From a virus, in the IMG/VR virus record IMGVR_UViG_3300042503_000464, positions 1 through 21,727 of that record: a DNA stretch of 21,727 nt, one strand, 5' to 3'. Shown here one piece after another: positions 373 through 20,727 of the stretch. The first letter of the stretch is position 1. Every line of letters begins with the position of its first letter. The notes under the pieces are model-generated. The model ran no database searches and was not told where the DNA came from. It worked only from the letters and a program-made list of their open reading frames with translations. Position numbers and translations under genes: made by a program.

Positions 373-400
373 TTGCATGGGCAATGCAGGCGGATACCAT
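373..400 (+). promoter_or_regulatory. Candidate sigma70-like promoter P1, leaderless geometry
   Basis: A TTGCAT -35-like box (373-378), a 16-base spacer and a TACCAT -10-like box (395-400) end exactly six bases before the ATG at 407. The predicted +1 would be at or next to the start codon. The boxes are weaker than at 7154 and 20432, but the geometry is the same. A 6+6 base inverted repeat (GCATTG at 370-375, CAATGC at 382-387) spans the -35 region. Inference only. Confidence 0.4.
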
Positions 401-406
401 CTCCGC

Positions 407-7149: not shown

Positions 7150-7153
7150 CCCA

Positions 7154-7182
7154 TTGACTTGCAATAACTCCTGCGAGATACT
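7154..7182 (+). promoter_or_regulatory. Leaderless sigma70-like promoter P2
   Basis: TTGACT (7154-7159), a 17-base spacer and GATACT (7177-7182) are followed by six bases and then the ATG of the protease/scaffold gene. The five-of-six -35 match, ideal spacer and four-of-six -10 match are seen directly. No Shine-Dalgarno precedes this ATG, so transcription would start at the start codon. This is the only sizeable gap (39 bases) in the head block. Confidence 0.65.
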
Positions 7183-7188
7183 TCGGCA

Positions 7189-8806: not shown

Positions 8807-9844
8807 ATGGCATTCTCTGTTGTCGGTGGTGGACTTTCGACGTACATCCCGTCCACCAATGATCTTGCGACGGGTGCGCTTCAGGTGGAGTTCACCCGTA
8901 GCGTCAACTCGTTCGCTCTCACCCGGTACGCGCAGTTGGTTCCCGTCACGAAGATGACGGGTTACTATCTGCGGCAGGACGTTCCGGACAATGTTCGTCT
9001 GACGAGCGACCGCGAGTTTGCTTGGCCGCTGGGCAATGACCGCCCCACGGGTAAGCAGAACTCGTTTGACTTCGTTCAGTACGCCACGCAGCGTTTCGCG
9101 TTCCCCTTCTACATCCCGCAGGAGACTGCGACGCAGGCCGCGTGGGATGTCGTGGCGCAGCACGCTCGCAGCAAGGCGCAGTTGGCGATGACCTCCCGTA
9201 CGAACCGTGCGGCGGCCATCCTGACTGATACGGGCAACTGGGGCAGCAACTTCGTTGCGAACCCCACGGCTTCCCCCATCTCGGCGGCTTCGCACTGGAA
9301 TGGCAGCACGATTGCGAACGCATCCATTCAGACTTCCATTCAGGCGGTCATGCGGCAGGTGAGCCTGTCGAGCGGCGGCGCGATTGCTCCGAATCAACTC
9401 ATCATGGTCATTTCTCCGACCGTGGCAAATGTGATTTCGCAGTCTCCGGAAGTTCGTGAATACGTCCGCAACTACCCCGCCGCCCTTTCGTTCCTTCAGG
9501 GTTCGGATACGTTCTCGCGGTGGGGCATTCCCCCGACCCTGTTCGGGCTGGGCGATGTCGTGGTGGACGATTCGGTGAAGGTGACGAGCAAGAAGGGTGC
9601 AACCCTTTCGACTTCGTACATCTACGGCGAGTCGGCCATCTTCGTGTCGCGTCCGGGTGGACTGGTCGGCGTTGAAGGCGCATCGTCCTTCAGCACGTGC
9701 CAAATCTTCGCGTACGAGGACATGACCGTTGAGCAATTCAACGATCCGATGAACCGTCGCATTGAGGGTCGCGTGATCGACAACTCGGTGGCTGCGGTGG
9801 TGGCCCCGGTTGGTGGCTATCTGATTCAGGACGTTATCTCCTGA
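8807..9844 (+). CDS. Major capsid protein
   Basis: This 345-residue protein follows the protease/scaffold and decoration genes. The predicted secondary structure pattern fits an HK97-type fold: an N-terminal arm (residues 1-30), a long helix-rich P-domain with ARSKAQLAMTSRTNRAAAIL, an A-domain beginning APNQLIMVISPTVANVI and a C-terminal beta region with AIFVSRPGGLVGVEG. SFSTCQIFAYEDMTVEQF and a C-terminal A-domain strand (GGYLIQDVIS) close the chain. Residues 6-19 repeat the junction peptide of the protease/scaffold, which may be a processing or scaffold contact site. The strong ribosome site supports high expression. It is the best capsid candidate by position, size and expression; the fold is inferred. 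Confidence 0.85.
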   Translation: MAFSVVGGGLSTYIPSTNDLATGALQVEFTRSVNSFALTRYAQLVPVTKMTGYYLRQDVPDNVRLTSDREFAWPLGNDRPTGKQNSFDFVQYATQRFAFPFYIPQETATQAAWDVVAQHARSKAQLAMTSRTNRAAAILTDTGNWGSNFVANPTASPISAASHWNGSTIANASIQTSIQAVMRQVSLSSGGAIAPNQLIMVISPTVANVISQSPEVREYVRNYPAALSFLQGSDTFSRWGIPPTLFGLGDVVVDDSVKVTSKKGATLSTSYIYGESAIFVSRPGGLVGVEGASSFSTCQIFAYEDMTVEQFNDPMNRRIEGRVIDNSVAAVVAPVGGYLIQDVIS

Positions 9845-20427: not shown

Positions 20428-20431
20428 ACCG

Positions 20432-20460
20432 TTGACTCCTACAGCCAAGTCATCTATTTT
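20432..20460 (+). promoter_or_regulatory. Leaderless sigma70-like promoter P3
   Basis: TTGACT (20432-20437), a 17-base spacer and TATTTT (20455-20460) are followed by six bases and ATG 20467. Geometry is identical to P2. No Shine-Dalgarno is present. It would separate transcription of the lysis-type genes from the tail genes. Confidence 0.65.
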
Positions 20461-20466
20461 GCTCTT

Positions 20467-20727
20467 ATGTCCGAATCTCCCCAAACGCGCATCATGCTTG
20501 AGCGGTTGCAACTGATTGCGACCGCCATACTGCTGTTCGGCTCCCTCATCTACGTTGGCAAGCGAAGCGAGCAGGACGAAGCGCAAAGCCGCGTGTTGAA
20601 TAACATCGCCGCTGACATTACGGTGATGAAGGAACGCAACGCCGACGCGAACGCGCAGATTCGCGTGATTGGCGAGCGCGTTTCGCAGGTGGAGAAGCGA
20701 CTGGAGCGCATGGAGCAGCCCCGGTGA
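20467..20727 (+). CDS. Small membrane protein with coiled coil (holin- or i-spanin-like)
   Basis: This 86-residue protein has one membrane segment (about residues 14-30, LQLIATAILLFGSLIYV) and a charged helical coiled coil (about 34-83, with VSQVEKRLERMEQ). This layout fits an inner-membrane spanin (membrane anchor then periplasmic coiled coil) or a phage membrane protein of another kind. The start is unusual: no Shine-Dalgarno, but P3 points directly at it. The stop overlaps the GTG of the lipoprotein gene (GTGA), which supports a functional pair. I do not recognise a family. Confidence 0.65.
   Translation: MSESPQTRIMLERLQLIATAILLFGSLIYVGKRSEQDEAQSRVLNNIAADITVMKERNADANAQIRVIGERVSQVEKRLERMEQPR

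Follow-up and report, generated by a model that had tools for sequence, protein, structure and literature searches.

Does the short gap before g21 hold a promoter whose transcript would begin on the start codon itself, and does the same arrangement recur elsewhere in this phage? The question is raised by positions 20432-20469, where direct reading gives TTGACT-N17-TATTTT-N6-ATG, letter for letter as first described; the two hexamers match 9 of the 12 positions of the sigma-70 consensus TTGACA/TATAAT at a spacing within 16-18 bases. The window, meaning the whole stretch of DNA analysed, is a linear virus record of 21,727 bases with about 60% G+C. Among the proteins it encodes are a Mu-type portal (PF06074), a Mu F-like protein, a capsid protein, and a tail protein of the pectate-lyase type. 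Its genes are tightly packed, and two 39-base gaps (7150-7188 and 20428-20466, the latter directly behind the tail-fibre gene) hold the 7154 and 20432 sites. Anti-Shine-Dalgarno matches of at least 4 bases are absent before the starts at 407, 7189, and 20467; the capsid gene at 8807 carries a strong Shine-Dalgarno (SD) sequence, AAGGAGG.

The original prediction of a leaderless promoter at this locus gains comparative support from a geometry kept over diverged spacers, from a sharp peak at a gap of six bases between -10 element and ATG (gap 6), and from the missing SD. Taken together, these sequence features lead us to assign a probability of roughly 0.86 to the reading that the 20432 site is a genuine host sigma-70-type promoter with its +1 at the A of the ATG, yielding a leaderless mRNA. 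The elements, their exact spacing, their conservation, and the absence of an SD can be read from the sequences themselves (Table 1).

Table 1. Features of the g21 locus and its companion sites in the window
Feature	Position	Strand	Basis and remarks
-35 element TTGACT	20432..20437	+	Direct reading; kept in L074 despite a different spacer
17-base spacer CCTACAGCCAAGTCATC	20438..20454	+	Direct reading; varies among relatives
-10 element TATTTT	20455..20460	+	Direct reading; TAGGAT in the same place in L073, L075, L104
Six bases GCTCTT, -10 to ATG	20461..20466	+	No SD; predicted +1 at A 20467; gap-6 peak
g21, 86 aa	20467..20727	+	ORF; N-terminal hydrophobic helix, coiled-coil-like tail; homologues L073-L106
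g22, 164 aa	20724..21218	+	ORF; lipobox (LAGC), hydrophobic helix; overlaps g21
Promoter TTGACT-N17-GATACT-N6 before g08	7154..7188 (ATG to 7191)	+	Pattern scan; orthologue conservation
g08, 393 aa	7189..8370	+	ORF; precedes g09 and the major capsid gene
Major capsid gene	8807-9844		Capsid by phrog_1005
Promoter TTGCAT(373-378)-N16-TACCAT(395-400)-CTCCGC(401-406) before g02	373..406 (ATG to 409)	+	Comparison with relatives
g02, 634 aa	407..2311	+	ATG 407 start common to orthologues

From this arrangement we infer the transcription start at the A, leaderless translation, the timing of expression, and the extents of the operons. The housekeeping sigma-70-type RNA polymerase of the host would read TTGACT/TATTTT and start at the A of the ATG, ribosomes would begin on the 5'-terminal AUG without an SD site, and the g21-g22 block, presumably transcribed jointly, would gain its own transcript behind a tail-fibre gene subject to exchange among relatives. 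Promoters arranged in this way would head the g02-portal and g08-capsid blocks, as well as two small genes in the near-complete relative G001 (IMGVR_UViG_3300044986_000212, whose final 100 bases are repeated near its start). Read-through from upstream genes could cover g21 and g08 as well.

The window has three such sites, not the two originally counted, which had left out the one at 373-409; the g02 block opens at ATG 407 and continues through the portal into head genes. In the mechanically produced ORF list g02 begins at GTG 365, while the orthologues and the promoter favour ATG 407. TACGTT-N6-ATG at the start of g18 (15325) was not counted, because it sits within conserved coding sequence. 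The description of the 7154 site as belonging to a head gene holds on location, g08 standing two genes ahead of the one for the major capsid protein, and a protease or scaffold role for g08 is a guess from position. Calling g21 a lysis-type gene is plausible, judged by eye from its N-terminal hydrophobic helix and coiled coil and from the lipobox protein encoded next, but family profile searches gave no match for g21 or g22; the g21 product may possibly be a holin or inner spanin.

Comparison with relatives, 70 viral contigs with the capsid protein and 34 with g21, bears most directly on whether these sites are kept. Across 11 orthologue sequences at g08, conservation is 92% in the -35 and 88% in the -10 element, as against 50% in the spacer and 52% in the gap; in L003, homology restarts at the -10 element, yet the -35 is still TTGACT. 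At g21, spacer and gap bases differ in L074 with both hexamers unchanged. In L073 the g21 protein is identical and nucleotide homology to the window restarts exactly at ATG 20467; the DNA upstream is unrelated, yet it carries TTGAAC-N17-TAGGAT-N6-ATG, and L075 and L104 have TTGTGT-N17-TAGGAT-N6-ATG. These upstream comparisons place the g21 promoter at the border of an exchanged tail-fibre gene. At g02, TANNNT-N6-ATG/GTG is kept in many relatives despite unrelated upstream sequence and is absent in a few. The TANNNT-N6 pattern is absent from the AT-richer g21 homologues L082-L105, in which a conserved block, CTCGCCTTTAGTTTGCAATTAAATAC, stands directly before the ATG and sequence further upstream varies.

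It was also proposed that identical architecture at separate genes reflects a phage-wide rule. The recurrence is borne out by G001, with five gap-6 sites (three at g08, g21, and g02, the other two at small genes, of which one precedes the terminase), but the sites stand only at the heads of blocks, and many other genes have SD-like sequences or overlap a neighbour.

Could such sites be chance matches in short, AT-rich gaps? The pattern first suggested, TTGACW-N17-NATNNT-N6-ATG, matches the window at 2 places and none of 100 dinucleotide shuffles, a result that is weak alone since the pattern was devised post hoc, with the sites already seen. A generic sigma-70 promoter scan likewise found promoter-like sites in the window no commoner than in shuffles, which leaves geometry and comparison, and not hexamer scores, to carry the case. 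On those grounds the expectation that the pattern would exceed chance is upheld, with relatives serving for the wider scan because the window is a virus fragment: in 36 related contigs, orthologues included, TTGACN-N17-NANNNT-N6-ATG has 20 matches against 0 for the reversed pattern, and a spacer-by-gap matrix over 1.23 Mb of dereplicated sequence has its top cell, with 11 sites, at spacer 17 and gap 6 (next highest 6, most 0-3). TANNNT lies exactly 6 bases before 32 of 1,855 non-redundant ATG candidates, whereas the other gaps average 5.2 (Poisson P about 2e-15, an approximate value, as dereplicated rows keep orthologous starts with diverged flanks), and TANNAT shows 18 at gap 6 against a mean of 1.6 at other gaps. 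GTG starts have no clear TANNNT excess at gap 6. When a -35 or extended -10 plus an ORF is required, gap 6 yields 3 sites in the window and 5 in G001, with 0-2 at other gaps and 0 at gap 6 on the antisense strand. With the geometry also kept across independent upstream sequences, we regard chance as almost out of the question. For orientation, TTGACN-N17-TANNNT-N6-ATG is sparse in 14 bacterial genomes, at 0-8 per genome.

If the promoters are true, RNA might still start 1-4 bases before the ATG or at several positions, leaving very short leaders. Start sites often wobble by 1-2 bases, and in some relatives the -10 element lies 8-10 bases from the g08 ATG, which makes a short leader and not none. 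The peak at exactly 6 is sharp, however, the seventh base is A, and a separate hairpin class (below) shows the same N6 step; we therefore think such leaders unlikely at this site. A phage-modified or phage-encoded RNA polymerase, raised in the original prediction, would account for fixed geometry at several genes but is very improbable, as the elements fit plain sigma-70 -35/-10 and extended -10 forms. Searches of 16 long relatives gave no Sigma70_r4 domain, although the controls for it responded, and no integrase either, and no modified polymerase is thus needed; a small factor acting on the host sigma is possible. The PF00940 search for T7-type polymerases left its controls unmatched and is uninformative on RNA polymerase genes. 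The reading that remains preferred is a host sigma-70-type promoter starting on the A.

The other idea put forward, a host that favours leaderless starts, is possible. An alignment search with the capsid found no match in GTDB contigs, and a capsid relative is absent among 50,697 annotated phage records. Terminase matches of 22-30% occur in many phyla, the best in Planctomycetota. A 12,179-base contig, L197, found in 1 of 392 genomes from the same phylum as a Planctomycetota MAG, encodes a 38% capsid homologue, a terminase, and a portal; it is a distant relative with these three genes in a different order, and none of its structural genes has a clear gap-6 site. The corresponding sets for an Acidobacteria MAG (347 genomes from its phylum) and an Armatimonadota MAG (201 genomes) gave no capsid homologue. 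These matches give a weak hint of a host in Planctomycetota.

The leaderless gene of lambda is cI, alike in being a phage message that starts at AUG and different in being a single regulator gene, as opposed to blocks with structural and probably lysis functions. It was in lambda that leaderless initiation was first observed (PMC3160421). Closer in position is the Corndog group of Cluster O mycobacteriophages, in which the predicted SigA-like promoters PL1, PR2, and PL2 place +1 on the first base of the start codon and one such promoter serves a structural-operon gene (PMC4351075). Those are other phages with another host, and the window's family has no capsid relative in annotated phages; in this family, moreover, conservation over diverged spacers was tested. 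Leaderless genes with TANNNT about 12 bases before the start and no SD are common in some phyla, among them Actinobacteria and Deinococcus-Thermus; in Deinococcus, the TANNNT promoter is stronger when a -35 lies 17 bases upstream of it (PMC3160421, PMC12340547). Those are cellular genes, however, and most Deinococcus cases lack a -35 (PMC3160421, PMC12340547), whereas each of the window's three sites has one. Thermus phage P23-45, a user of host RNA polymerase whose gp39 displaces sigma region 4, has extended -10 middle and late promoters (PMC7403470), a likeness to relatives of the window described next.

Leaderless phage promoters, then, are already known, although starting a gene in this manner is uncommon, and the window adds a new instance from an uncultivated phage family, conserved across divergent relatives; the less familiar parts are the position at module borders and an extended -10 built from a stop codon. 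The extended -10 motif, TGN-TANNNT, can substitute for a -35. In other relatives the -10 element directly follows the stop codon of the upstream gene, as TGATANNNT-N6-ATG (13 at gap 6, 0-3 elsewhere), and stop codon, promoter, and leaderless start fit within 18 bases. The abutting stop is TGA in 14 of 14 cases, ATG and GTG starts included, against a family-wide TGA share of 63% (binomial P 0.0016), and TTG stands at the right -35 distance in only 1 of 14 ATG sites with an extended -10. Open-access papers yielded no account of leaderless phage genes whose extended -10 is supplied by a stop codon, though one may exist.

Tentatively, at a little under even odds, we suggest that leaderless promoters act as portable caps at module borders, with TGA in relatives doubling as the TG of the extended -10 and the -35 there dispensed with. 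If true, exchanged modules could carry in or retain start signals of their own for transcription and translation. A family with a mixed SD and leaderless plan, and with -35 and stop-codon-built extended -10 versions before the same gene, offers a natural series for testing by what means promoters persist through the exchange of modules and what benefit leaderless starts bring to phage structural and lysis genes. A practical consequence is that gene callers reliant on SD can mis-start such genes, as with g02 (GTG 365 instead of ATG 407).

A second promoter class, with several copies in some relatives, has the form TTGCAC-CCT...AGGG-TANNNT-N6 followed by a hairpin, for example GTCGAGCATGTCGCTCGGC, after which there is usually an SD-like stretch and then a gene. 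Counting from the -10, the hairpin begins at the seventh base, and folding predicts that this base is paired (-12 to -14 kcal/mol). Were it the +1, an equal distance in the leaderless class would fall on the A of the ATG, and the N6 step hints at an independent mark of the +1 position. The class occurs in L121, L123, L130, L131, L135, L141, L145, and L146, with the hairpin GTCGRGC-ATG-... and a CCT...AGGG inverted repeat in the spacer, and resembles a phage regulon whose operator sits between -35 and -10. Some small leaderless genes have a GC-rich inverted repeat (such as CCCC...GGGG) in that interval; they lie at 7264 in L108, 18560 in L107, and 9616 in L121, and on the minus strand of L123. 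The three of them that were compared with Pfam matched no family significantly, and these genes are possibly self-regulated.
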